From Patescibacteria group bacterium (GTDB taxonomy: Bacteria; Patescibacteriota; JABMPQ01): 58,975 nt of DNA. The position numbers and the translations under genes were made by a program. Shown in pieces: positions 32,352 to 45,893 of the stretch. Location of the stretch: NCBI GenBank assembly GCA_018818965.1, contig JAHJQX010000043.1, forward strand, positions 1 through 58,975, in the 5' to 3' direction. How positions within the stretch are numbered: the stretch's first letter is position 1; the number at the start of each line of letters is the position of its first letter. The notes beneath the pieces are model-generated. The model was not told the origin of the DNA. It made no database searches and was given only the letters and a program-made list of their open reading frames with translations.

Positions 32352-33284
32352 CTACACCTCCACCCCCATCAAATAACTCATCGCTGCCAGCATTGACTCG
32401 ACAAACAATTCCTTTTTCGAATAAATCGCTCGCGGGTCAGGATCAACATCACGCTCGATCTCAAATATCAATGGAGTGAGCATATCAAGAAAAGCATCAG
32501 GCCGAAGCTTTTTCATGTGTTCGGTGGTGATTGGTTTATACTTTTTCATAATCATTTCTTCCTTCTCCTTAGGAAACATATCATCAGGAATAATCCCTTT
32601 TTGTAGTCCACGAGTAACTAGAAGATAATCTACTTCGCCAATAAAGTCATCTAATTTACCATATTCAAGTTTCTTCAAGCCATTTTTCTTAGCTTGTTCT
32701 TCGACTTCTTTCGGTATTGGAAACTCACCAAAATCATCTACATAAACCTCAACACCAAAATGCCCCATAATCGGTACTATTGCTTTTATGCATCGGTTTA
32801 TTTCTGGCGTCCCATAAATACCAACTTTCAAACCCTCTAATCTTTTCAAATAATGAAATATATTTACCATCATCATGGCTGCCCCAACGGCATGCTCTTT
32901 GGATCCACTACCACCATTGATCACTGGTACACGGGAAACCTTAGCCGCTCGCTCAGCTGAATCCTCATCAGTGTGACGAATTACAATTATATCTGACATA
33001 CCAGAAAACGTCCGCACTGTGTCCTCTAGGCTCTCACCCTTTTCCATTGATAGCCCTTGTTCACCAGTAACACTGACAAACCCACCACCGGATCGCAACA
33101 TGGCCACCTGGGCTGAAGTCATAGTGCGTGTCGAAGGTTGGAAGAAAAGCGTAGCGGCTACTTTTCTTTTCATTAGATCAGCCGGAATCCCCTCAGTAAG
33201 AAATTTGTCAGCTCGCATGACGATTTCCTCGTAGCCAGCCTTATCAATATCCTTGGAAAACACGAGATGTTTTGGTTTGGTCAT
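32352..33284 (-). CDS. Divergent aspartate/ornithine carbamoyltransferase family protein
   Basis: The 310-residue protein has the carbamoyl-phosphate binding signature FFQPSTRTMTSAQVAMLR (Ser-Thr-Arg-Thr, about 49-66), the 80s-loop pattern LSMEKGESLEDT and IVIRH, so it belongs to the ATCase/OTCase fold. The usual HPTQ motif is HAVG here (SGSKEHAVGAAM), and the late HPLPR block is replaced by DMLTPLIFEIERD. It therefore may not be a standard aspartate carbamoyltransferase. The spacing of 16 bases from the last swivel-domain gene suggests it belongs to that operon. No other pyrimidine gene is nearby. Confidence 0.78.
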   Translation of the reverse strand: MTKPKHLVFSKDIDKAGYEEIVMRADKFLTEGIPADLMKRKVAATLFFQPSTRTMTSAQVAMLRSGGGFVSVTGEQGLSMEKGESLEDTVRTFSGMSDIIVIRHTDEDSAERAAKVSRVPVINGGSGSKEHAVGAAMMMVNIFHYLKRLEGLKVGIYGTPEINRCIKAIVPIMGHFGVEVYVDDFGEFPIPKEVEEQAKKNGLKKLEYGKLDDFIGEVDYLLVTRGLQKGIIPDDMFPKEKEEMIMKKYKPITTEHMKKLRPDAFLDMLTPLIFEIERDVDPDPRAIYSKKELFVESMLAAMSYLMGVEV

Positions 33285-33300: not shown

Positions 33301-34761
33301 CTAGGTTAATTTTCGCACAATACCTTGGTCGGCGTCAACCTCTACCTCTTGTCCATCACGAAACGCCCGGGTGGCTTCTTTAGTTCCAACCAGACAAGGA
33401 ATGTTAATTTCCCGACTAACAATGGCAGCGTGAGAAGTAATACCACCTTCATCAGTAACAATTGCTACCGCCCGCCGCATCGCCGGCACAAAATCAGGAT
33501 GAGTGGTAATTGCCACCATTACGTCCCCTGGCTTTACCTTGCGTAAATCGTGTTTGCTAATAACTATTTGTACCGAACCACTAGCGCGTCCTTGATTGCC
33601 GATGATCCCTTTTAATTCGCTTGCTTTTTTATCAGCCTGTGAACTTAATTCTTGTTCAACTATTTTATGCGCCCGGCGACCACTAAATATTTTTATTTCG
33701 TGATCATTCTGACGCCACAGTACATAGCCATCCTGCCGCTGACGTATTTCCCTCATATCCGGCAGCTGACCAATCACTAGGAATTCCTCTATTTCATCAT
33801 TCAATAAGTTTACCACTTCTTTTAAATCTAGCCCCGCTCGACGGCCGATTTCTTGGTATAAGGATTGTAAATAGAAACTGCCCAGACGACGAAAATCATC
33901 CCGCTGATCCTTAATAAAACAGAGAGCGTGAGCCATTCTCAACAAATTATTCTGGCGACGAGTTAGTTTAGTTAATAATAAAAATTTATCAAATTCGCTG
34001 CGCCGCTGAAAAAAATTATCCCTAAGTTTCTTTAACTCCTCAGTTGGTGCCGTTGAAGAATCGATAATTTTATTTAGTTCCTGCCGGAAATAATCAATTT
34101 CCCAGGGTTCATCACCAGGATCATAACAAGGAATCCAGCGGAAATTCTGGCAGTGCTTCTGTAATAATTTTTCTTTAGCTCCTCCTTTTTGCACTAAATC
34201 AGCCACTTTCAGCAAACTTTCCCGCTCTCTAGTAATAGCATTTTTCTCCTCGGGCGAAAAAACAAAATTGAAAATTTTCTTAAATTTTTCTTCGTCTCCC
34301 GAAGCTAGCTTTTTTATTTCCTCCTCGGCTGCTACGGCTAAAAACGGCTCAATCACAAAAGGAATCCAGATTGAGCGCTGAAAAAACTTATGGTTGAGCT
34401 TAACTGCCAATTGGTGAAGGCTCAGTAATGATTTATTGCTGGCCTGGTCGGAAACTTGCCGGAAGATCTTTCTCGTTCCCATAAAGAATTCATTCTGCGC
34501 CCATTGGATTAAACGTTGGTATTTTTGAAAAGAGCGCCAATTCTGACAGACAACCTGATATATTTTCTGCTGGGCAGCTGGCCATTCTGCTTGGTCAAAA
34601 TAAATAGCGTGATTCTTGCCTGCTGGTACTACGAGGATATTTTTTAGCTTGACTTGAAAATGTTTTTGATAGAAAGAGGAAAAAGAAATACTCATCACCA
34701 CCTCGTAGCGGTGGGCGGAAAATTTACGAGCAAAATAGTATTGCCAATTGGTTTTACTCAT
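33301..34761 (-). CDS. PEP-utilizing mobile-domain protein, paralogue 1 (last in array)
   Basis: The 486-residue protein ends with a swivelling phosphohistidine domain (about 395-486): GDVMVAITTHPDFVPAMRRA, EGGITSHAAIV with the phosphorylatable His, and VGTKEATRAFRDG. The N-terminal 380 residues are helical; a motif at about 300-325 (CFIKDQRDDFRRLG) matches the W-x-D-x-R-K motif of the paralogues in a weakened form, and the aromatic FRWI motif is near 220. PEP synthase, pyruvate phosphate dikinase and rifampicin phosphotransferase use such a domain to carry phosphate between an ATP-grasp domain and an acceptor domain. Neither of those is encoded here. The start overlaps the next gene upstream by 4 bases. 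Confidence 0.85.
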   Translation of the reverse strand: MSKTNWQYYFARKFSAHRYEVVMSISFSSFYQKHFQVKLKNILVVPAGKNHAIYFDQAEWPAAQQKIYQVVCQNWRSFQKYQRLIQWAQNEFFMGTRKIFRQVSDQASNKSLLSLHQLAVKLNHKFFQRSIWIPFVIEPFLAVAAEEEIKKLASGDEEKFKKIFNFVFSPEEKNAITRERESLLKVADLVQKGGAKEKLLQKHCQNFRWIPCYDPGDEPWEIDYFRQELNKIIDSSTAPTEELKKLRDNFFQRRSEFDKFLLLTKLTRRQNNLLRMAHALCFIKDQRDDFRRLGSFYLQSLYQEIGRRAGLDLKEVVNLLNDEIEEFLVIGQLPDMREIRQRQDGYVLWRQNDHEIKIFSGRRAHKIVEQELSSQADKKASELKGIIGNQGRASGSVQIVISKHDLRKVKPGDVMVAITTHPDFVPAMRRAVAIVTDEGGITSHAAIVSREINIPCLVGTKEATRAFRDGQEVEVDADQGIVRKLT

Positions 34762-36053
34762 AGCTTTTTTACTATTCCCCGATCGGCATCTACTTCTATC
34801 TGGTCACCATCCTTAAAGGCTTGGGTAGCGATCTTAGTGCCAATCACGCAGGGTTTTTTCATCTCGCGGGCGATAATAGCGGCGTGACAAGTAATGCCAC
34901 CCTCGTCCGTTACAAAAGCGACTGCTCTATTCATCGCTACAATATAGGCTGGGATGGTCATCGGAGTGACCAGAATATCTCCCTTGTTTACTTTGTCTAC
35001 TTGCTGGGGATTATTTACTACCTTGGCTGTCCCAGTAGCTTTACCTGGCCAGGCGACAGCACCTTTTATTTTTCCTGTCTCCCTTCCTGCCGACGTAATC
35101 ACCGGGCAATCTGACACCACTATGTCATCACAGTACTTTAGGATAGCGGATTGAGACACGTTGCGCTGCTGCCCGATTTTCCCATTTTTGATATCCCCAG
35201 GAAGGCAGTCTCTAATCGACTCTACTCCTAGAACTTCAGCCGCCCGCGCAAAAATCGGCTGCGCCAAGTGATATAATTCATACAAAGCATCAGTACGAAA
35301 AGTTCGCAAAAACACTAATTCTTGCAGCTCAGCTGATAGATCCCGTAACGACTTGGGGACATCCGGCTGCTCTATTTTTTCTGCCGTCTTAGCCAACACT
35401 TCTCGTCGGATTTTCTTCATCTCTTCCAGGCTAAAACCAGGAGCAAAACCTCCCTCAATTCGAGCCTTCATCCAGGCATATTCTTGGTGTAACTTCTCAA
35501 GACTCATTCCTTGTCGGATATCGTCCTCCATTAAATTATGCGCGGTTTTCTTCGTCGGCTTACTAATATCGCCAACAAATTTTTCCACTTCTGGTTCGGG
35601 AACAAATTCTTTAGCTTTCTCGGTAATAATGGGAATGTAATACTCCTCACAACCATGTGCCACCCAAATATAGACGTTGAAAGGTAAAATTAGATCAACG
35701 ACTCTTTGGTACAACTCCAGGGCGTCAGCTCGATCAGCTTGGATCAATTGCTTTGTTTCTTGCTTTATTTGTTGATATAAATTTTCACATTGCGTAACCA
35801 GAGTAAAAATATCTTTCTGCTGGAGATATTTGCCAGCTTCGGCGGCCGCCATTTTAATCATTTCCGGACAGCGATACCAGGTATAAGAATCATAAGCCAC
35901 GATGGGATATTCACCCTTTATACCTTGCTCAGCAAAAGCCCGCCTAGTAGCCCCAACAAACATCAAATAAGTAACCAAAAAGGCGTAGGGCCGGTGCAGC
36001 CAGACTTCCCACCTCATCGCTTTTATCTTACTTTTTACCTGTTGATCATTCAT
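34758..36053 (-). CDS. PEP-utilizing mobile-domain protein, paralogue 2
   Basis: The 431-residue protein has the C-terminal swivel domain (about 340-431) with GDILVTPMTIPAYIVAMNRA, GGITCHAAIIARE (His retained) and VIGTKIATQAFKDGDQ. The N-terminal region is helical and contains EYAWMKARIEGGFAPGFS, a variant of the K-Y-x-W motif, and LRTFRTDALYELY instead of W-x-D-x-R-K. The N-terminal part is shorter than in most paralogues. It overlaps its neighbour downstream by 4 bases and its neighbour upstream by 8 bases, so translation is coupled. The function is unknown; phosphoryl carrier is inferred from the domain. Confidence 0.84.
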   Translation of the reverse strand: MNDQQVKSKIKAMRWEVWLHRPYAFLVTYLMFVGATRRAFAEQGIKGEYPIVAYDSYTWYRCPEMIKMAAAEAGKYLQQKDIFTLVTQCENLYQQIKQETKQLIQADRADALELYQRVVDLILPFNVYIWVAHGCEEYYIPIITEKAKEFVPEPEVEKFVGDISKPTKKTAHNLMEDDIRQGMSLEKLHQEYAWMKARIEGGFAPGFSLEEMKKIRREVLAKTAEKIEQPDVPKSLRDLSAELQELVFLRTFRTDALYELYHLAQPIFARAAEVLGVESIRDCLPGDIKNGKIGQQRNVSQSAILKYCDDIVVSDCPVITSAGRETGKIKGAVAWPGKATGTAKVVNNPQQVDKVNKGDILVTPMTIPAYIVAMNRAVAFVTDEGGITCHAAIIAREMKKPCVIGTKIATQAFKDGDQIEVDADRGIVKKL

Positions 36054-37380
36054 GCTCTAATTTTCTAGCAATCCCCCTATTAGCATCCACTTGTACCTCC
36101 TCGCCATTGCACAAAACCTGAGTAGCAATCTTGGTGTTGATTATACAGGGTTTTTGCAGTTCACGCGAAATAATAGCGGCGTGGCAAGTGATACCACCTT
36201 CATCCGTAATAATAGCAGCTGCTTGGTGCATTATCATCACCATGTTGGGAGTAGTCATGCTAGTAACCAAGATTTCACCTTTTTTAAATTCCGCCAAATC
36301 CTTTTTAGTAAATACGACCTTTACTCTACCTGTCGCCCAGCCTGGTGAAGCTACTACGCCTTTTATCTTTTTAATGTTCCCCAAATCTTGAGCAAATATT
36401 TTCCTGACTTCTTTACTTTGTTGACCGTGAACACAGACAAGTTTCCCGTTTTCGACATAAATATCGTAGCCCTTGACGCGTTCAGACAATATATTTTTGG
36501 CAGGAATATCGTCTCTTAAAACTTCGTCAGCCAGACAATACAAAAGCTGCTCGGATGTCAGTCCTTGCTCTCGCGCATATTTATTCAACAACGGATAAGC
36601 CTCGTAAGAAGATCGATTGAGAATGTCAGTGCGTCGGGTGCGATAGTAAACAACGAATTGCATTAAATCTACTAGATAATCTGCTGACGAACCCAAAACT
36701 TTTTTTGCCTCAGTAATAGTCTGTTTGATTTTCTCTTTTTCAGTCTCCCTTCTTTCTAGGTATGAATTCTTTTCCAGTATTCCCAATCTCATTTCTGCCT
36801 CGGACAACTGATACGGCTGGTGCTGACCGTAACGAGAATTTAGCCAGACATATTTTTTGACATGTCTCACTAGATCAGCACTAGTTACCAAATCATATTC
36901 CTCTCGCTTGTAATAATTATCTCGTAGAGGAATATTTAGCTTATCTAGTATAGTTCTGGTTTTTGGAGTGCCAACTTTTTCCAACAATAATTTGCTTATT
37001 TCCCTTTCTATCGGCTCTTCGACCTGTTGAACTGGAAGAATAGCCACCGCATACCTAGCATACGCTCGTAAATATCTCTTAACATCGGAGCCACGTGTCG
37101 CCACCAACAATTTTTTTGCTCTGGTCTCTAAAATATAATTTACGTTTTTGATTTTTTGCGCGCTGTTCCAATCTCGCAGAGTAGCTTCACCCACTTCATC
37201 CCGCTCTTGCCGAATATAATAGAAATTGTAATCACTCTGAATAGCTTGAGTTAGTTCAGCTGGTCGAGAAATAAATCCAAGGTAATTTTCCTTATTAAGA
37301 ATGCCGGCAAATATTGAAGAAGCATAAAGTGGTGGATAAGGACGACGTACTATTTTTACATAGTCTGCTTTCTCCAACAT
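36046..37380 (-). CDS. PEP-utilizing mobile-domain protein, paralogue 3
   Basis: The 444-residue protein ends in GEILVTSMTTPNMVMIMHQA, GGITCHAAIISRE and CIINTKIATQVLCNG. The His is present, but the usual IGT after the motif is INT. The N-terminal part has KKYVWLNSRYG (the aromatic motif) and VVYYRTRRTDILNRS in place of W-x-D-x-R-K, as in paralogue 2; these two may form a subgroup. It overlaps paralogue 2 by 8 bases. The extra Glu-His-Glu at the C-terminus is unique in the set. Confidence 0.84.
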   Translation of the reverse strand: MLEKADYVKIVRRPYPPLYASSIFAGILNKENYLGFISRPAELTQAIQSDYNFYYIRQERDEVGEATLRDWNSAQKIKNVNYILETRAKKLLVATRGSDVKRYLRAYARYAVAILPVQQVEEPIEREISKLLLEKVGTPKTRTILDKLNIPLRDNYYKREEYDLVTSADLVRHVKKYVWLNSRYGQHQPYQLSEAEMRLGILEKNSYLERRETEKEKIKQTITEAKKVLGSSADYLVDLMQFVVYYRTRRTDILNRSSYEAYPLLNKYAREQGLTSEQLLYCLADEVLRDDIPAKNILSERVKGYDIYVENGKLVCVHGQQSKEVRKIFAQDLGNIKKIKGVVASPGWATGRVKVVFTKKDLAEFKKGEILVTSMTTPNMVMIMHQAAAIITDEGGITCHAAIISRELQKPCIINTKIATQVLCNGEEVQVDANRGIARKLEHE

Positions 37381-37388
37381 ATTTTTAG

Positions 37389-38921
37389 CTAAATTTTCTT
37401 AGCCAGACCCTTATTGGCATCTACAAATACCTTATCACCAGTTTTGAAAGCTTGAGTGGCGATTTTAGTACCTATCACGCACGGTTTTTTAAGTTCTCGT
37501 GACACCACGGCGGCGTGACTGGTAATCCCACCTTGCTCAGTCACAATGGCAGCTGCTTTCTTCATAATGGGAACAAAGTCAGGAGTGGTTTGATTGGTAA
37601 CCAATATTTCGCCTTCCTGAAACTGCTTCATATCTTCCGTCATCCGTACTACTCGCACCACGCCTGTGGCCTTGCCCGGCGCAGCGCCTACCCCTTTTAA
37701 TTTTTTAACGTCCTTAGACTGCTGCTGTAAATACGCAAAATACTTATTCGCTTCTTGGCCAGCGGCAATATAATAGCCGGCTGGTGTTACGGCAAAGAAC
37801 ACCTGTTTCCTGCGAGCGGTGATTTTATCTTTTAGCTCTTGTTCGCCCGATAACGCGGCACACACTTCCGCAAACACCAAAAAAGTCATATCTTTGGTCG
37901 AAATCCCTACTCTACGTCCAATTTCACCCAGAAACCGTTCAAAATGAGACATCCCCACATAAACCCCGCTTTTACGCACATCTTTCCATTCAGTGAATAA
38001 GTCAGAAATCTGTAAAACATTGCGGTGAAAATCGTCTAGTGTTAAATTAGCCAAGATTTTTTGTCGTTTTTTCTGGTACTCTTTGATTGCTTGCTGTTTC
38101 TTCTGATATAATTCGGCTATATTTTTACTACCACTGGCGGTAATAAGTTGCTTCAATCTGTCATAAAAATCAGCCAGATTAATAATTACCGCCTGATAAT
38201 AATTATTATTCATCCAGTAATACTTCTGTCTGTGCTTTTGTAGTAACTGATATAATTCGGGTGTCTCTTTTTTAATAATTTCCAGTGCCGGCAATCCGTT
38301 ACTATAATGTTCAGCAAACTTCACTGCTAAGCCCAGTAAATCATTTTCTTCTTCGATCGTGAAAGATAAAAACCCGGGCGAGAGCAAAATTCGCAAAATC
38401 TCATCGCAATCGCCAGATATTTTCATCTTAGCCAACATTTCTCGAAACATTTCCTCCAACCAATCCGTCTCACCAGTTGACATGAAAGAATCAGCTAAGT
38501 AAGCAGCGGCACCCGCGCCTAAATATAACTCATAGAATTTCTTAAAATCTTGGAGTAGTTCTTTGTCAGTTAGTTCGCTTAGGTCTTTATCCACTAACTT
38601 ACCTGAACAACTTATGTACTCAGACCAGTCAGCCTGCCACTTACGATATCTTTTCATTACGTGCTCGGTACCCTGCCCAGCTTCTGTTACCACCCAGTCC
38701 TTAACTTTTACCAAGTTTTTTTGATCCAGAAACCATTGAGCATGATCTTCTTTGATAAAGCAGAAGCAAAACTGGTAAGGGATTGGAATTACCTGGGCGA
38801 GCCTAAAAACCTCCGTTTCCGAAGAAGCAAACAAAGTAAAGACTTTACTTTCAAAGGATTTATTGTACTGCTCTCCAACTTCTTTGACGATGGCTGTAGG
38901 AAAGTTCGATAGTTTTTTCAT
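37389..38921 (-). CDS. PEP-utilizing mobile-domain protein, paralogue 4
   Basis: The 510-residue protein is the longest of the set. C-terminal swivel domain: GEILVTNQTTPDFVPIMKKA, QGGITSHAAVVSRE with His, VIGTKIATQAFKTGD. The central part has QKYYWMNNNYYQAV, FTEWKDVRKSGVYVG (the W-x-D-x-R-K motif) and FLGEIGRRVGI, shared with paralogues 5, 6 and 8. A C-terminal linker of about 45 residues before the swivel includes YIAAGQEANKYFAYLQQQS. The gene starts 4 bases inside the upstream gene. Confidence 0.85.
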   Translation of the reverse strand: MKKLSNFPTAIVKEVGEQYNKSFESKVFTLFASSETEVFRLAQVIPIPYQFCFCFIKEDHAQWFLDQKNLVKVKDWVVTEAGQGTEHVMKRYRKWQADWSEYISCSGKLVDKDLSELTDKELLQDFKKFYELYLGAGAAAYLADSFMSTGETDWLEEMFREMLAKMKISGDCDEILRILLSPGFLSFTIEEENDLLGLAVKFAEHYSNGLPALEIIKKETPELYQLLQKHRQKYYWMNNNYYQAVIINLADFYDRLKQLITASGSKNIAELYQKKQQAIKEYQKKRQKILANLTLDDFHRNVLQISDLFTEWKDVRKSGVYVGMSHFERFLGEIGRRVGISTKDMTFLVFAEVCAALSGEQELKDKITARRKQVFFAVTPAGYYIAAGQEANKYFAYLQQQSKDVKKLKGVGAAPGKATGVVRVVRMTEDMKQFQEGEILVTNQTTPDFVPIMKKAAAIVTEQGGITSHAAVVSRELKKPCVIGTKIATQAFKTGDKVFVDANKGLAKKI

Positions 38922-40354
38922 AATTTTTCTATTACCTCTCCCTCCGCATCTAGTTTTATCCTATCGCCGTCTTCCAACACCGAGGTAGCTGCTTGCACTC
39001 CCACTACGCAAGGAATTTTCAGTTCGCGGGCAACGATAGCGGCGTGACAAGTTAGTCCCCCTTCCTCCGTAACAATCCCACCAGCGATCTTCATAATCGG
39101 TAGATAATCTGGTCTGGTCATGGGGGCAACGATAATATCACCCGGCTGCACTTTAGAAAAATCTTTATTGGTTTTCACGACTTTCACTATCCCCTCTATT
39201 GTCCCTCTACTGGCACACATTCCTTTAAGTTCCGCTTGGATAATAGATTTATCTAGTAAATTATAGAGTGCTTGTGCTTCCTCGCCATAAAAACAAGACC
39301 ATTCTGTCTTTTTAGAACCATAGAGATAGACAATGCCAGCCTGTCTTTTCTTTAGCTCATCTTCGATGCCAGGTGGCAGTTTCCACCCTCTAATGTCCCA
39401 CAAATTGAGGAAATGAAGTAGTTCTATCCCAATATCATTAACCCGATTAAATTGCTTCAGAATCTGATAAAAATAGTGATTGGCAATGCAAATACTTTTT
39501 TTTCTAACATCGCGCCACTCGGCCATCTGGGAAAATAGATAAAAGATATTTTGCAGCTGGGGGCTAATTTTCTTATCAGCTACAATCGTTTTTTTCTCCT
39601 TTCGGCTATTATTTAAAGTCTTGGTGATTTTTTCTGACTCTTTAATTCGCTTATTTAGAGAGTGCTTATCATCCTCAATCAAATCCCGAAAATATTTTTC
39701 CGGTAATTCCCTGACATTATACCAATTATTTTTAATCCAGAAGTATTTTTGCTGGTGTTCTGCTAGCTGACCGCTAATATCCTTCCCAGCGGCAGATTCT
39801 TGAGCTATTCGGATTCGCTCGACAAATTCTTGCTGCTGCTCCGTCAAATTATCAGGACTAGTTAAAATGGCTATCTCTTCACTAGATAAACTTGCTCCGT
39901 CCTGCTTAATCAGCTCGGCCAATATCTTATCGCCCTCAGGATCAAATACTTCGATTATAAGAGAAACAACCCAGCAATCTAAAAATAGTTTAGTAATTTC
40001 TTCCAGATTATCGACTAGTTCTTGATCGTTCCACCTTGACAGCGGTCGCCGATACCTAGATTGAAGCAATTTTGTCATTTGGTCATTAAGGTGGTGCCAT
40101 TTTTTGATCCTCTTATTAATATATTCTCTTCCTGGGGTGGCTTTTTTTATTATCTCCTCAGCCTTTTTAGTTTCCTCGTCTTTATTGAAATAGGCAATAT
40201 TAACCCGACCTTTTTGGGTATTAACGCAATTGTTATACCCCAATAATATGTATATTGATTTATACGGCCGGAAAGTATAGAAAAAACTGAGTTCGCCACC
40301 CTGACGATACCAATTTTTCGTTTTAATATTTTTTACTAGTTTGGCGTACTTCAT
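38918..40354 (-). CDS. PEP-utilizing mobile-domain protein, paralogue 5
   Basis: The 478-residue protein ends in GDIIVAPMTRPDYLPIMKIA, EGGLTCHAAIVARE with the His, and VVGVQAATSVLEDGD. Shared motifs in the helical N-terminal part are QQKYFWIKNNWYNVRELPEK and MAEWRDVRKKSICIA. The last residues (LDAEGEVIEKL) differ from the usual VDAxxGIVxKL. Its ends overlap both neighbours by 4 bases, the most regular coupling in the array. Confidence 0.85.
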   Translation of the reverse strand: MKYAKLVKNIKTKNWYRQGGELSFFYTFRPYKSIYILLGYNNCVNTQKGRVNIAYFNKDEETKKAEEIIKKATPGREYINKRIKKWHHLNDQMTKLLQSRYRRPLSRWNDQELVDNLEEITKLFLDCWVVSLIIEVFDPEGDKILAELIKQDGASLSSEEIAILTSPDNLTEQQQEFVERIRIAQESAAGKDISGQLAEHQQKYFWIKNNWYNVRELPEKYFRDLIEDDKHSLNKRIKESEKITKTLNNSRKEKKTIVADKKISPQLQNIFYLFSQMAEWRDVRKKSICIANHYFYQILKQFNRVNDIGIELLHFLNLWDIRGWKLPPGIEDELKKRQAGIVYLYGSKKTEWSCFYGEEAQALYNLLDKSIIQAELKGMCASRGTIEGIVKVVKTNKDFSKVQPGDIIVAPMTRPDYLPIMKIAGGIVTEEGGLTCHAAIVARELKIPCVVGVQAATSVLEDGDRIKLDAEGEVIEKL

Positions 40355-41805
40355 TTTAATTCTCTAACTATCCCGTGATTAGCTCGTACTTCTATTTTCA
40401 TCCCGTCCCGGAATATTTTAGTTGCCTTTTTAGTACCAATTACTGTCGGAATATTTAGTTCACGTGCCACGATCGCCGCGTGACAAGTAATTCCGCCCTC
40501 ATCAGTCACAATCCCCGCTGCTTTTCTCAGAGCCGGCATAAATTCCGGCCTCGTCATCGAAGCAACAATAATGTCACCTGGTCTTACTTTAGCCAGCGAG
40601 GACAGTCCTCGGCAAATTACGGCTCGTCCAATCGCCGTGCCAGTCATGGCCACCGAGCCGTGAAGCTCTCGCTCGATCACCGACATCTCTTTCTCTAATT
40701 CCGTTCTGTATTTTGATATTTTTAAGTACTCCTGCCCGGTCAAAACATGTTCTTTCTCTGTCTGCATTAAGAAAAACACGCCCGGTGATCTTTTTCTTAA
40801 CTCAGTTTGCCAAGCTTTCAGATCCGAAAATGAATTGAGATTAATTATATCCCTAACCCCCAGATAATATAAATACTTCTTGGCGATCTTGGTGCGGCGG
40901 CTGATTTCATCCACAATCCGCTTGAGATAACCAATTGCTTGCAAAATATTGGCTTTACGCTCATCTTGCCAACTAGTAGTAAAATCAATTAGCTCAATAT
41001 TAGCGACAGCAGCTGAATCTAGTTGAAGTTGGTCAATCAGAACCGCCTTTTTCTTTTTTGTCGCCACCTCAGATATCTGTTTTTTATTTGTGATAGACCG
41101 GAGACGACGAGTAAAGTATTTAGCTGATAATTCTCTTACTTTGGCATAGCTATTTGATAGCCAGAAATATTTGGCGGCGTGTTCGGCTAATTTTTTTGCC
41201 TGCTCCGATGAACTCCGCTTGGCTATTTTTATCAACTCAGCTTCTTCTCGAGCTAAGAAAGATGGCTCAGAGGGCGCCGTAAGAACGGTAAAATATTCAT
41301 TAAAATCTTTCGGGGAATCGGCGGCTGATTGTAATTGCTTTTTAAAATCCTTCTCTAGCCCCATTCCAACTGATTCGATAACATGAGCGCTACCAGCAGA
41401 TTTTATGGTTATTTCGGCACATTCCTTAAATATTTTAACTAATTCGTCGTCCGTTAATTCCTTTAGCTGATTACTTTTAATTTGCTGGAATAATTGATTG
41501 TAGTTAGCAAATTTATGAGAGTATTGTTTTTTGACCTGATTCAGATAATTAGGATCATCAACCAGCTTTCTCTTCACTATCTGCCAAATACACTCCAGGT
41601 CTTTTTCCAAATAACCAACTTCACAATACCCCTGGTGGTAATCTAAAAAATATTTATTGTATTGGTAACCTAAATCTTTTCCCATCACTAAGCCACTGTA
41701 AGCTGCGGAATTAAGAAAAATCGGCAGGCCATTAAAACCTTGGATATACCACTTTTCCCGAAGTGCCTGTTGGCAAATTTTGTAGGCTGAGAAATTCTGA
41801 CTCAT
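40351..41805 (-). CDS. PEP-utilizing mobile-domain protein, paralogue 6
   Basis: The 484-residue protein has a canonical swivel domain: GDIIVASMTRPEFMPALRKA, GGITCHAAIVARELNIP with His, VIGTKKATKIFRDG. The central motifs are LTAPSEPSFLAREEAELIK, AAKYFWLSNSYAKVRELSAK and DFTTSWQDERKANILQA, which define the fullest version of the family core. YEEISRR-like VDEISRRTKIAKKYLYYLG follows. It overlaps both neighbours by 4 bases. Similarity to paralogues 5 and 8 is visible along the whole length. Confidence 0.86.
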   Translation of the reverse strand: MSQNFSAYKICQQALREKWYIQGFNGLPIFLNSAAYSGLVMGKDLGYQYNKYFLDYHQGYCEVGYLEKDLECIWQIVKRKLVDDPNYLNQVKKQYSHKFANYNQLFQQIKSNQLKELTDDELVKIFKECAEITIKSAGSAHVIESVGMGLEKDFKKQLQSAADSPKDFNEYFTVLTAPSEPSFLAREEAELIKIAKRSSSEQAKKLAEHAAKYFWLSNSYAKVRELSAKYFTRRLRSITNKKQISEVATKKKKAVLIDQLQLDSAAVANIELIDFTTSWQDERKANILQAIGYLKRIVDEISRRTKIAKKYLYYLGVRDIINLNSFSDLKAWQTELRKRSPGVFFLMQTEKEHVLTGQEYLKISKYRTELEKEMSVIERELHGSVAMTGTAIGRAVICRGLSSLAKVRPGDIIVASMTRPEFMPALRKAAGIVTDEGGITCHAAIVARELNIPTVIGTKKATKIFRDGMKIEVRANHGIVRELK

Positions 41806-43214
41806 AATTTTTTTATCACTCCTTTAGCCGCATCCACTTCCACCTGATCACCACTTTCAAAAACTTGGGTAGCAATTTTTGTTCCGACCACACAGGGAAT
41901 CCCAAGTTCTCGGCTGACAATTGCCGCATGACAGGTTAATCCACCTTCATTGGTCACGATCGCGGCTGCTTTTTGAATTGCCGGCATGAAATCGGGGGTA
42001 GTATTGCTGACCAGTAATATTTCTCCCTGTTTTATTTTACTATTATCGCGGGCGCTTTTCAGATAGCAGATAACACCCTTAATTTTCCCGCTGGAAGTCG
42101 GGGTACCTTTGACTACTTTAACATTTTCCCCCACTTCTTGATCCTGATCGATATCTTCTCTGATGCGCTTAGCTTCACGATTCGACAAATATTCATTTTT
42201 TCCGTTATACATTTTAATAACCGAATTTTCTTTGCGCTTAGCGACAACACTAGCATCAATCTTCCCTTTCTCTAGAGCATCTTTCACCTCCCACCAGAAA
42301 AACCAGCCCAAATCCGCGAAGCTAACACCAAGACGACTGGCCATTTCCTCACGCATGGGAATAGCCGCGTAATTATATTTGGTAAATACTTCTTTTTTTC
42401 GATCCATCAGGTAAAAAAGATCTTCAAAAATGCGTAAATAGTAGGTATAGGGGGTAGATAATTTGTATTTTTTACTAATAGCTGTTTTTTGTTTAGCTAG
42501 CTCTCGATCATCAATCAATTCTGGCGGCTCCTTGGTTAATTTATGGGCGCGCTGAACAAAATATTCCCTATCGACAATTACGCTGGCATAGTCATACAAT
42601 AACCACTGATATTTCTGCCAGTGTTGATCTATTTTCTGGTCAAATTCCGGCTGAGATAAATTTTGTTGAGTAATTTGCCGTAATGCCTCTTCTTCCCGAC
42701 TAAGAAATGACTGATAAAGAGGTGTTAATAAAGTCTCATATCTAGTAGTTGGCAACTTAATCTCTTTGAGTAGATATTCTGCCAATACTTCTTCCAGCTT
42801 CTCTTTGAGATAATAGGCTAGGGGCTCTCCATAGGGAACGGCACGATAGTAGAGGTAATTATACTGCTCCCCGATTTTAATAAGCTCGGCCTGACTGTAA
42901 CTTTGCCAGTCCATTACTTTCATCTGCTCGATAAAATTTAAAATAGCCGCAATTCGCTGGTCAAAAATCTTTTTGGCGTCACTGATGTAGTTTTTATCAG
43001 CCGCTATTTTAGTAAAAAGATAATCGGTGATCTTTTGCCGAACACTCTCCAAGCAATAAATGCGTACCCAGGCGTCCTGGTAAATAAAATAGGCTGGCCC
43101 GCCATTGTAACCGACTGTCTCATCGATACAGCTCGTCCAAGCACCAGCCACTCCTTCAATCATCAGTGGCGGATAATCCCCTCGTTCGTGCATGAAATAA
43201 TATTTGTGGGACAT
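41802..43214 (-). CDS. PEP-utilizing mobile-domain protein, paralogue 7
   Basis: The 470-residue protein ends in GEILLVSNTTPDFMPAIQKA, NEGGLTCHAAIVSRE with the His, and VVGTKIATQVFESGD. The central part has LTPLYQSFLSREEEALRQI, WQKYQWLLYDYASV and LFYLMDRKKEVFTKY, the last being a variant of the W-x-D-x-R-K motif. The N-terminal start MSHKYYFMHERGDYPPL includes an aromatic stretch. Its stop overlaps the next gene by 4 bases and its start is 2 bases after paralogue 8. Confidence 0.85.
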   Translation of the reverse strand: MSHKYYFMHERGDYPPLMIEGVAGAWTSCIDETVGYNGGPAYFIYQDAWVRIYCLESVRQKITDYLFTKIAADKNYISDAKKIFDQRIAAILNFIEQMKVMDWQSYSQAELIKIGEQYNYLYYRAVPYGEPLAYYLKEKLEEVLAEYLLKEIKLPTTRYETLLTPLYQSFLSREEEALRQITQQNLSQPEFDQKIDQHWQKYQWLLYDYASVIVDREYFVQRAHKLTKEPPELIDDRELAKQKTAISKKYKLSTPYTYYLRIFEDLFYLMDRKKEVFTKYNYAAIPMREEMASRLGVSFADLGWFFWWEVKDALEKGKIDASVVAKRKENSVIKMYNGKNEYLSNREAKRIREDIDQDQEVGENVKVVKGTPTSSGKIKGVICYLKSARDNSKIKQGEILLVSNTTPDFMPAIQKAAAIVTNEGGLTCHAAIVSRELGIPCVVGTKIATQVFESGDQVEVDAAKGVIKKL

Positions 43215-43216
43215 AG

Positions 43217-44701
43217 TTAAGCTTTTTTTATTATTTTGACCATCCCTCGATCCCCATCCACCTCTACTTCATTGCCATCTTTTAAAATGCTGGTAGCCCC
43301 TTTAGTGCCCACAATGCATGGTATCCCCAACTCCCGCGCCACAATGGCGGCGTGACAGGTAATCCCGCCTTCATCAGTCACAATCGCCCCCGCTTTCCGA
43401 ATCAGCGGCATATAATCCGGACGAGTCATGCCAGCTACTAGGATATCACCCTGGTTCATTTTACTCTCTTGGCGTGAGCTTAGTAGAACTTTTACCTCTC
43501 CTCTAACTTTTCCAGGAGAAGCTGCTAAACCTGATAATTCTTTAATATCCCGATCTAGATCGGCCGGGAACAGTTCAGCAATCACTTTCTTGCTCTCCAG
43601 ACCCGCCAACAATTCATAATTGCCATTCTTTTGGATGTATAAACAACCCTTCCTTCTTTTCTTTATTTTATCTAAGTCGATGCCCTGAGTGAATACTTCT
43701 CTTATTTCAATTGGAAACATCCACTTTAAATGCTTTTTCTTAATATTTAGCCGACGAAAAAACTCATCCAGAAAAATCGAACAAATTTCCACTGAGCGCG
43801 AGCACATTTCTTTGCGTTCATCTTGCCAAAAAGTTAGGTGGGTCATTAGTTTTAACTGATTTTGGATAACGAGCGGAACTTTTAACTCTTTTATTATGCG
43901 CGCCTTTCGGGCTGTTAAATTAGCTACCAGTTTCCGAAAATGATCTCCACTGCCACTTTTGCCTAGATATTTTAGCTCTTTATCTATATACTCCTGATCT
44001 ACTGGCTCATAAAAACCATAGCTAGCTCGAATCCAAGAATATTTCTGCTGAATCTTTTTTATTAATTGAAGCTTTTTCGGCGACTCGGCTGCTTTTTTTA
44101 ATTCAGCAGCAAAACGATTGAGGAAGGTTGGTTCAGCTGGCAAAGTGAGAAGACCATAATATTTGCTAAATAGGTCTGTCTTCCCTTGTAGCGCCAGAAA
44201 CCTCCGAAACCCTTCTTCTGTCACCTTCCTTTTACTAACCACAAAGGCTTCGATAAAAAACGCTGAGCCTAAGTTAGCAATGAAATGTTCAATAAACTGA
44301 TCATAAAGCTCCAGAAGCTTTTCATCAGATAAACTGATTAGGTTGGTGGTTTTTATATCATAGAATAGTTTTTCCGATTCTGCCTTGGCCTTCTTCCATT
44401 CTTGATAGATACCATCAAGGTAATCCAGGTTTTTTTGGGTTTTGACTATTACTTTTTTGACAATAGCTGCCAACTCATAATCCGGATGACAGTAATGCAT
44501 TTGGCCACGTTCAAAATACGCTAACACCAACGTCATTTCGGGGAAATGGCGTCGTAAACTATGGCCGGTCATTGCGGCTGAGGCGGTGAACACATAATTT
44601 GGACAACCATCAAGTATTTCGCGAGACCAGTCCCACTGCTGATATTTTTTCAGCCGGGCAGACGATAATTTTTCTAGTTCTATTATTTCCATAAATGCCA
44701 T
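43217..44701 (-). CDS. PEP-utilizing mobile-domain protein, paralogue 8 (first in array)
   Basis: The start is set at the ATG at 44701, since a longer frame to 44770 would run across a TATAAT promoter box at 44729-44734; the ATG at 44692 is an alternative. The product (494 residues) has the swivel domain GDILVAGMTRPDYMPLIRKA, GGITCHAAIVARELGIP with the His, and IVGTKGATSILKDG. The core motifs are LTLPAEPTFLNRFAAELKK, QKYSWIRASYG and HLTFWQDERKEMCSRS, followed by LDEFFRRLNI. As first gene of an eight-gene run it sets expression of the array. Confidence 0.85.
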   Translation of the reverse strand: MAFMEIIELEKLSSARLKKYQQWDWSREILDGCPNYVFTASAAMTGHSLRRHFPEMTLVLAYFERGQMHYCHPDYELAAIVKKVIVKTQKNLDYLDGIYQEWKKAKAESEKLFYDIKTTNLISLSDEKLLELYDQFIEHFIANLGSAFFIEAFVVSKRKVTEEGFRRFLALQGKTDLFSKYYGLLTLPAEPTFLNRFAAELKKAAESPKKLQLIKKIQQKYSWIRASYGFYEPVDQEYIDKELKYLGKSGSGDHFRKLVANLTARKARIIKELKVPLVIQNQLKLMTHLTFWQDERKEMCSRSVEICSIFLDEFFRRLNIKKKHLKWMFPIEIREVFTQGIDLDKIKKRRKGCLYIQKNGNYELLAGLESKKVIAELFPADLDRDIKELSGLAASPGKVRGEVKVLLSSRQESKMNQGDILVAGMTRPDYMPLIRKAGAIVTDEGGITCHAAIVARELGIPCIVGTKGATSILKDGNEVEVDGDRGMVKIIKKA

Positions 44702-44728
44702 GTTTAAAACACTGCCCTTTTCATAACT

Positions 44729-44734
44729 ATTATA
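44729..44734 (-). promoter_or_regulatory. -10 box of the swivel-domain gene array
   Basis: A perfect TATAAT on the minus strand lies 28 bases before the ATG at 44701. No good -35 box is seen (the best, at 15-17 bases, is poor). The array could also receive transcripts from the baeRF10-like gene 113 bases upstream. Confidence 0.5.
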
Positions 44735-44813
44735 CTTAAATAAACATAACAAGATTGGGGATAATGGCAAATAAAAAAGACAAGGTTGATTTAGCGAAAA
44801 TTAATGTAAAATA

Positions 44814-45893
44814 TTAATACCTTAAAAACGCCCCCACATTGCCCAAATCTTCCAATTCTTTGCTACCTTTTACAAACTCCACTCTCGCTCCCTGGGCGAT
44901 GGCTGCTTGCATCATTTCATCGATCAGGTCAGCCACCTCTTCCAATTCGTCCTGACAACCACATTCGTCCGCTTCTAAGCCCAGCAAACCACAACTAGGA
45001 CAATTGTAGCCGGATTGAGTAAAACCATCTGCTAGCACTAATTTCATTACTTTTTTATCATTGACAGCCTGTAAAGTATCGCGAACACCCGATACTGCTT
45101 TATTACCTACCCCTAGATTATCTCCCAACTCTTTTACTAGTTCAGCCTCTTTCTCCCGCTCGACTTTTTCCGCTACCTTAAGTGATTCTTGCAAAAAGTG
45201 CTCCGTTGGCTGAAACAATTCTGTCGCGAAGTCTCCTGCTAACCGGGATTGTAAATCGGGATGTAAAGCTTTTTTAAAATCTGGCAAGATCTCCTTACTG
45301 CCAGCGATGATTAAACGATCAAAACTATCTTGCTTAAATAAACCATAGGTCTTGGTAGCTATTTCTTTTAAATGCCGCTGAACGTGATCCTCAATATGAC
45401 CTTGAAATCTCTTTTGCGACCAACCGCCTTGGGCATGCTGGCCGGGAAACTCGTTAAAAATGTCAGTGATGTCCTCAATCTCGCTCAAGAAGACCGTGAA
45501 TATTTGGGCTTTCTCCTTATCAAGAACGACCGTGCAATATCTCTCGTACTCATCGAGAAGTTCTTCCAGCTGAGTAAGGTGTAAGTTAGCCTCCTGATAA
45601 ACTCCCTGGCGCACGGGGACACGAAACTGATATTGCCGCCACGGTTCACCGGCCGGATCGATGAAGAAAGCGAGGCCTTTAATTTCCTGGTTAAGCTCTT
45701 GATCCAGATAATCGAGAACTTTTTGCTGTAAATTAGTTGGTAACGTATCGGCTACTTTTTTCAATAAATCCTTGGCGCTAGTTAAAATCTTTTCTTTGTT
45801 TTGTAATTCCTGATCAGTGTTGAGGTAAAGACTAATTAGCGGGTTGGAGCTTTTGATAGCGTTGAGTTCTTTGATGTCGGCGGAAGTGAGCAT
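44814..45893 (-). CDS. baeRF10-like protein (archaeo-eukaryotic release factor family)
   Basis: The 359-residue protein resembles the bacterial archaeo-eukaryotic release factor family 10 and Vms1/VLRF1-type proteins. It has an N-terminal half with SLYLNTD, then the central YCTVVLDKEKAQIFTVFL, the loop HAQGGWSQKRFQGHIEDHV (in eRF1-like domain 2 the GGQ-equivalent region) and DRLIIAGSKEILPDF. The C-terminal part has a zinc ribbon (NCPSCGLLGLEADECGC). Such proteins are thought to act at ribosomes, for example freeing stalled peptides. The link to the downstream array is unproven. Confidence 0.83.
   Translation of the reverse strand: MLTSADIKELNAIKSSNPLISLYLNTDQELQNKEKILTSAKDLLKKVADTLPTNLQQKVLDYLDQELNQEIKGLAFFIDPAGEPWRQYQFRVPVRQGVYQEANLHLTQLEELLDEYERYCTVVLDKEKAQIFTVFLSEIEDITDIFNEFPGQHAQGGWSQKRFQGHIEDHVQRHLKEIATKTYGLFKQDSFDRLIIAGSKEILPDFKKALHPDLQSRLAGDFATELFQPTEHFLQESLKVAEKVEREKEAELVKELGDNLGVGNKAVSGVRDTLQAVNDKKVMKLVLADGFTQSGYNCPSCGLLGLEADECGCQDELEEVADLIDEMMQAAIAQGARVEFVKGSKELEDLGNVGAFLRY

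Follow-up and report, generated by a model that had tools for sequence, protein, structure and literature searches.

What function is served by eight consecutive genes whose products each carry the phosphohistidine swivel domain of phosphoenolpyruvate (PEP) synthase without an accompanying kinase domain? This question is raised by the minus strand of a 58,975-nucleotide (nt) stretch of DNA from a Patescibacteria group bacterium (contig JAHJQX010000043.1 of assembly GCA_018818965.1, hereafter the window), in which open-reading-frame analysis identified eight tightly packed genes at positions 33301–44701 encoding proteins of 431–510 amino acids (aa), in a genome of approximately 1.2 Mb. We propose, with a probability of roughly three in four, that the eight proteins represent acceptor/phosphocarrier subunits of a split and expanded small-molecule dikinase, in which one kinase serves all of them and each has a different acceptor.

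All eight genes encode an acceptor domain followed by a swivel domain. Gene 8, the first in transcription order, spans positions 43217–44770, its most likely start being an ATG at 44701 that yields a protein of 494 aa. It is followed by gene 7 (41802–43214; 470 aa), gene 6 (40351–41805; 484 aa), gene 5 (38918–40354; 478 aa), gene 4 (37389–38921; 510 aa), gene 3 (36046–37380; 444 aa), gene 2 (34758–36053; 431 aa) and finally gene 1 (33301–34761; 486 aa). The genes appear to be translationally coupled since neighbouring frames overlap by 4–8 nt at five junctions; the other two junctions are gaps of 8 and 2 nt. Pfam analysis placed the swivel (PEP-utilizer) domain PF00391 at the C-terminus of all eight proteins (E-values of 1.5e-24 to 3e-28), encoded at positions 43244–43456 (gene 8), 41820–42035 (gene 7), 40372–40584 (gene 6), 38942–39148 (gene 5), 37407–37622 (gene 4), 36073–36288 (gene 3), 34776–34988 (gene 2) and 33322–33534 (gene 1). 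Neither PPDK_N (the ATP-grasp) nor PEP-utilizers_C was matched by Pfam in any of the eight, and no confident Pfam match was obtained outside PF00391. Additionally, the motif GG[IL]T[CS]HAA, which includes the phosphohistidine (His437 in the gene 5 protein, codon 39044–39046; His444 in the gene 1 protein), is present in all eight. A preliminary description of this DNA as eight consecutive swivel-only paralogues, each with its phosphorylatable His, was therefore accurate in these respects, but it overstated the remaining shared motifs: K-Y-x-W is exact in six of the eight proteins, and W-x-D-x-R-K, said to occur in most, is exact in just four (genes 4, 5, 6 and 8, at 37389, 38918, 40351 and 43217). 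The paralogues are strongly diverged, the gene 1 protein sharing 22–27% identity with the other array proteins.

The same description had postulated a single kinase encoded elsewhere, and a candidate for it was indeed identified. Exactly two PPDK_N ATP-grasp domains are encoded by the whole genome, one within an intact 818-aa PEP synthase and the other in a free gene for a stand-alone, 314-aa ATP-grasp protein of the PPDK_N type (L027:14132–15076, on a contig other than that of the array; hereafter the free grasp). The genome contains 12 PF00391 domains, which are accounted for by the eight array proteins, a ninth full member of the family (L029:12448–14007), proteins of 379 and 110 aa, and PEP synthase; nine family members thus stand alongside one free grasp. 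By analogy, acceptor-plus-swivel proteins without a kinase, together with one free kinase, would constitute the anatomy of a split dikinase.

The distribution of the free grasp in related genomes follows that of the array. Among 29 relatives assessed with PF01326, a free grasp was present in six of six array genomes versus one of the 23 others (hypergeometric p about 1.5e-5, calculated by hand), and in genomes G003, G005, G022 and G002 it shares a contig with the array, no more than a few kb away. Across 381 Patescibacteria genomes, searched with a stand-alone-grasp profile and with at most four or five candidates scored per genome, both components were found in 40, the acceptor family only in 15, the grasp only in four and neither in 322 (Fisher p 5e-37); both components are present in 24 families, kinship being handled in these statistics by the counting of families only. 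In the 40 genomes with both, the components are at most 200 bp apart or fused in 16, and within 5 kb or fused in 29. Furthermore, 43 of the 44 grasp-positive genomes possess exactly one grasp. An additional 42 genomes, reached via related loci, yielded a free grasp in 24 and a grasp within a long fused frame in four, as counted from open-frame lengths. PPDK_N was also observed in open frames of about 1000–1220 aa in four genomes (G248, G374, G265 and G153); the usual length of PEP synthase is 750–850 aa.

The two components are also joined in natural fusions, which represent one kinase and many acceptors in a single chain. The grasp is fused to one acceptor module in L059 (768 aa), L128 (798 aa) and L144–L147 (669–704 aa), to two modules in L079 (1166 aa, the reading frame being cut by the start of the locus), to five in L136 (2612 aa) and to eight in L122 (3768 aa), where the His is kept in all eight swivels. 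A C-terminal grasp is preceded by three modules in L137 (1681 aa) and by eight in L135 (4201 aa). These fusions come from metagenome assemblies, and several independent assemblies agree.

The nature of the N-terminal region was explored by structure prediction. The AlphaFold2 model of the gene 5 protein, generated with 110 aligned sequences, attained a predicted local distance difference test score (pLDDT) of 95.5 and a predicted template-modelling score (pTM) of 0.91, and the top six matches returned by Foldseek against the PDB were six entries of rifampin phosphotransferase (RPH; E-values of 6e-12 to 6e-10), with alignments of 459–564 columns that cover approximately the whole protein. The best match corresponds to the rifampin-binding and swivel parts of RPH. 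Similarly, the model of the fusion protein L059 (pLDDT 91.4, pTM 0.72) matched full-length RPH (E 6e-36), the HpeI kinase structure 9goj (E 2e-20) and pyruvate phosphate dikinase (PPDK; E 7e-13). A search of a viral structure library gave short partial matches only, consistent with the swivel. As the array proteins and RPH share the fold of the acceptor domain, the two options initially put forward for the array, namely carriers charged by one kinase and RPH-like modification, become one mechanism.

At the level of individual residues, the family profile (A2) is collinear with RPH 452–866, and its conserved [QRK]-D-x-R-K aligns on RPH R666-E667-Y-P-K670. Mutation of R666 and E667 in RPH has shown that both are needed in the second phosphotransfer (PMC4844700). 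At the positions aligned to the catalytic Arg-Glu/Lys in the apex subdomain of RPH, Asp is found in 78, Lys in 75 and the first Arg in 30 of 110 sequences, and a near-invariant Arg (101/110) is located three residues after the partly kept first Arg position. The phosphohistidine within T/SxxGGxxxH is present in all 110 sequences, while GGxxxH is present in 351 of 355 acceptor domains, the remaining four still having a His; loss of this residue in relatives, which would have spoken against a functional array, was thus not encountered. Two positions ahead of the His (Thr435 in gene 5 numbering), Thr is found in 102 of 110 swivels, and in PEP synthase the Thr at this position is the regulated residue. 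A search of 13 array genomes revealed no regulatory kinase-phosphorylase of PEP synthase (PF03618), and control by this regulator was rejected although its target Thr is kept.

Since the swivel of the array proteins is closest to that of PEP synthase, it was considered whether the frames are fragments of PEP synthase genes or belong to a decaying array. They are not such fragments, because a separate, intact 818-aa PEP synthase exists and the N-terminal fold differs, being RPH-like rather than the TIM barrel; with the His retained throughout and the genes under apparent purifying selection (see below), the probability of this explanation is negligible. It is extremely unlikely, likewise, that the array constitutes a set of RPH-like resistance enzymes inactivating different antibiotics. 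The fold is common to both, and the family is diversified and patchily distributed, as such a set might be; however, members of the family are numerous in DPANN archaea as well, subfamilies are conserved across domains of life, no sequence similarity to RPH is seen outside the catalytic part, and PADLOC returned no match of weight. The rifampin-binding sequence blocks of RPH clade A were not found in the array family. A defence system was rejected as a candidate, there being no meaningful PADLOC match.

In the dikinase mechanism proposed here, the stand-alone grasp subunit would, by analogy with RPH, HpeHI and PpsAB, bind ATP and phosphorylate the His in the swivel of any array protein docking to it. 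The swivel would subsequently turn to the protein's own RPH-like helical acceptor domain, as suggested by the fold and the conserved residues, where the phosphoryl group would be passed to a small molecule bound in the acceptor pocket. Each array protein would have its own acceptor, so that one kinase would serve a toolkit of enzymes. Computation establishes which domains the proteins contain, their RPH-like fold and the great age of the divergence among the acceptors, and also that the single kinase is present, co-occurs with the acceptor family and is linked or naturally fused to it in relatives; that this kinase charges all eight proteins, and that their acceptors are small molecules which differ between them, is what we infer.

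By analogy, this mechanism would belong with those of the small-molecule dikinases. Two-component members of this group, HpeHI, CreHI and PpsAB, have been described as 1:1 pairs (PMC12167813), and resemble the present system in that the ATP-grasp kinase and the acceptor-plus-swivel protein are separate. The likeness to the HpeHI type extends to a C-terminal swivel with an active His, an RPH-like acceptor fold, and a stand-alone ATP-grasp partner in the same genome that is linked or fused in relatives. In contrast to the HpeHI type, one grasp is found here per 3 to about 35 diverged acceptors, with fusions of up to nine catalytic units. The array acceptors, at about 430–520 aa, are shorter than HpeH (about 650 aa, estimated from the reported 71.1 kDa, PMC12167813), Thr takes the place of the Met found two positions ahead of the His in the HpeHI type, and none of the phenolic substrates of that type is implied for the array proteins. 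RPH, whose acceptor and C-terminal swivel fold is shared by the array proteins, is a single chain with its own grasp and rifampin site (PMC4844700), whereas the array proteins lack a grasp; only the fusions, for example L059 and L128, reproduce the RPH-style chain of grasp, acceptor and swivel. PEP synthase is closest in sequence to the array swivel and to the stand-alone grasp, and also has the Thr two before the His, but PEP synthase and PPDK contain a pyruvate/PEP-binding TIM barrel and an N-terminal ATP-grasp, neither of which occurs in the eight array proteins. The order of domains is grasp-swivel-barrel in PEP synthase and acceptor-swivel in the array proteins.

If each protein has a different acceptor, is this diversity old or recent? 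To address this, a tree was built from 211 acceptor proteins of 70 loci, in which the nearest relative came from the same locus in only six cases, against an expectation of 3.4 under shuffling. The window paralogues are at least 3.1 units apart, while the gene 4 protein is 1.3 units from a Woesearchaeota protein (L064:14195–15619), with which it shares 41% identity over 507 aa versus 26–33% with its array neighbours. Cutting the tree at one level gave 14 subfamilies that occur in at least four loci, none with two members from one locus. The arrays are therefore mixed sets of largely non-redundant, old subfamilies common to bacteria and archaea, rather than the products of local duplication, and recent tandem duplication or arms-race expansion was rejected, the nearest relative lying outside the own locus in 205 of 211 cases. 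A sister genome contains six collinear orthologues of 54–78% identity, with gains and losses in between; orthologues of genes 8, 7 and 2 are located at L050:13396–14835 (54%), L050:10960–12354 (78%) and L050:5152–6450 (76%), respectively, no orthologue of gene 3 was seen in the sister genome array, and a relative of gene 6 occurs in Nealsonbacteria (L065:10280–11710, 45%). For the sister-genome orthologues, the proportion of non-synonymous differences (pN, 0.11–0.28) is far below that of synonymous differences (pS, 0.61–0.77, with synonymous sites near saturation), which supports purifying selection on the array genes. The earlier claim that the array is old and maintained by selection is consequently supported.

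Evolution has treated the two components differently: the grasps are conserved, with 41–78% identity to the copy in this genome, whereas the acceptor proteins, close orthologues aside, are mostly 20–30% identical, a pattern that at the sequence level suggests a constant kinase combined with a diversified acceptor set. Family members number from three to 17 per counted array genome of this phylum, and the Woesearchaeota genome G391 (1.2 Mb) encodes 35 members, which by estimate take up roughly 4% of its DNA, with one fused grasp. The best reading of these counts is that about 3–35 acceptor enzymes are served by each kinase.

Such sets of related enzymes could also be envisaged as a biosynthetic assembly line of the PigC/RedH type, in which phosphorylation activates a substrate for condensation or ligation and several enzymes act in sequence on one product. 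PigC and RedH (the prodigiosin and undecylprodigiosin ligases) belong to the same superfamily, and their profiles score on the swivel of the array proteins and on part of the acceptor domain (residues 332–507 of protein 4); in addition, the giant proteins with fused modules resemble assembly lines. PigC and RedH each consist of one chain, which includes an ATP-grasp, and each resides in one biosynthetic cluster, but no such cluster was seen at the arrays, and no biosynthetic neighbours are shared between them. The content and order of the arrays differ between genomes, unlike a fixed pathway, and the recurrent neighbours are of other kinds, as outlined below. An assembly line is, on balance, unlikely.

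The genes that recur beside the arrays encode histidine-phosphatase-like, HAD-like, HD-domain, Pta-like and carbamoyltransferase-like proteins, the Pta-like neighbours being found mainly at archaeal arrays. Histidine-phosphatase-like, HAD-like and HD-domain genes lie in or beside arrays of several phyla (L130:10493–11281, L084:11215–11829, L066:9355–9993 and similar). Perhaps the products of these genes remove phosphates that the array adds, and the neighbourhood as a whole leans towards small-molecule phosphate metabolism. In the window, a carbamoyltransferase-like gene (32352–33284, minus strand; PF02729, E 6e-31) is located 16 nt downstream of the array and is syntenic in the sister genome (85% identity), making it a possible member of the operon. 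Pfam detects only the carbamoyl-phosphate domain in its product, and carbamoyltransferase-like genes occur near arrays in five loci, the window included. Immediately upstream of gene 8, and likewise on the minus strand, positions 44814–45893 encode an eRF1-like protein (baeRF_family10, E 4e-29), which is probably outside the system since just one distant match was seen in other loci. At the locus of the free grasp (L027:11918–15076), the grasp gene overlaps that of a PfkB-type sugar kinase by 4 nt and an adenosylhomocysteinase gene adjoins; this set recurs in G001 (L056) and G005 (L053).

The neighbours also bear on the direction of the reaction. If it ran in reverse, the array proteins would strip phosphate from different phosphometabolites and the shared grasp would make ATP from AMP, a means of harvesting energy that might suit the small-genome lineages in which the arrays are carried. 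Some arrays have as neighbours Pta or carbamoyltransferase-like genes, whose products act on acyl phosphates, and HpeH by itself transferred the phosphate of phosphoacetophenone to a different phenol, showing the second step to be reversible (PMC12167813). Against this, the phosphatase-like genes inside arrays fit phosphorylated products better, and we regard a reversed system as very unlikely.

An improbable alternative is that the phosphoryl group is relayed to proteins, either a carrier or regulatory targets, as by enzyme I of the phosphotransferase system (PTS). Enzyme I receives its phosphoryl group from PEP and donates it to HPr; it shares the swivel domain with the array proteins, as well as the principle of one phosphoryl source for several specificities, and the present genome does encode a bare, 110-aa swivel protein. 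However, HPr was not found in this genome, for which reason a PTS-like relay was rejected, the array proteins contain no PEP-binding domain, and the accessory domain differs: the fold match over the acceptor domain is RPH, enzyme I matching the gene 5 model far more weakly and superposing poorly. The bare swivel protein (L029:7027–7359) keeps its His and is adjoined by a gene for a 246-aa protein (L029:7454–8194) with a histidine-phosphatase-like RHG start and no Pfam match; the two may form a pair of carrier and phosphohistidine phosphatase. The 379-aa protein (L027:3967–5106) combines a swivel with an N-terminal part of a different kind, and many swivel proteins of 340–380 aa with a short N-terminal part occur in related arrays; such proteins may represent a second acceptor type.

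Several observations weigh against the split-dikinase interpretation. In this genome, the free grasp gene and the array reside on different contigs (C16 and C43, respectively). At the cut-off used for the grasp, 15 family-positive genomes gave no match, and the phylum-wide test is partly circular because most of the copies from which the grasp profile was derived are linked to arrays; the PF01326 test in the 29 relatives, which is independent of that profile, agrees with the phylum-wide result. The complete PEP synthase of this genome might conceivably phosphorylate the swivels as well. With respect to the fold, Foldseek template-modelling (TM) scores against RPH are low (0.28–0.50 for the gene 5 protein and 0.34–0.38 for the fusion L059), probably due to a different orientation of the domains. 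The acceptor (N-terminal) domain alone gave no RPH match in a HMMER search of the PDB, and its hhalign alignment to RPH is weak (E 0.003, probability 10%), albeit in the same register as the profile alignment; homology to RPH therefore rests mainly on the fold, sequence alignment of the acceptor domain being confined to its catalytic part.

Taken beyond this genome, it seems probable that the arrays represent a modular system with a shared kinase, in which one ATP-grasp charges a genome-specific, largely non-redundant set of acceptor enzymes of different specificity. Modules of this system would pass between Patescibacteria and DPANN archaea, and in some lineages they have been joined into giant enzymes, each with a single kinase and as many as eight acceptor-swivel modules. 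No description of the one-to-many organisation, the giant fusions or the distribution in Patescibacteria and DPANN was found in the openly licensed literature, although such absence is not proof; we know of no described dikinase system with a one-to-many organisation, and the system appears to be undescribed.

Patescibacteria and DPANN archaea have tiny genomes with few known pathways, yet some of them spend a sizeable share of that genome on this family. If the interpretation is true, these organisms, otherwise characterized by their deficits, would turn out to possess an extensive and so far hidden part of metabolism or salvage, and the kinase would offer a modular chassis on which acceptor domains can be exchanged. 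The long-standing question of what these symbionts import and trap would also become testable. Thanks to the natural fusions, a single gene suffices for an assay of the entire system.

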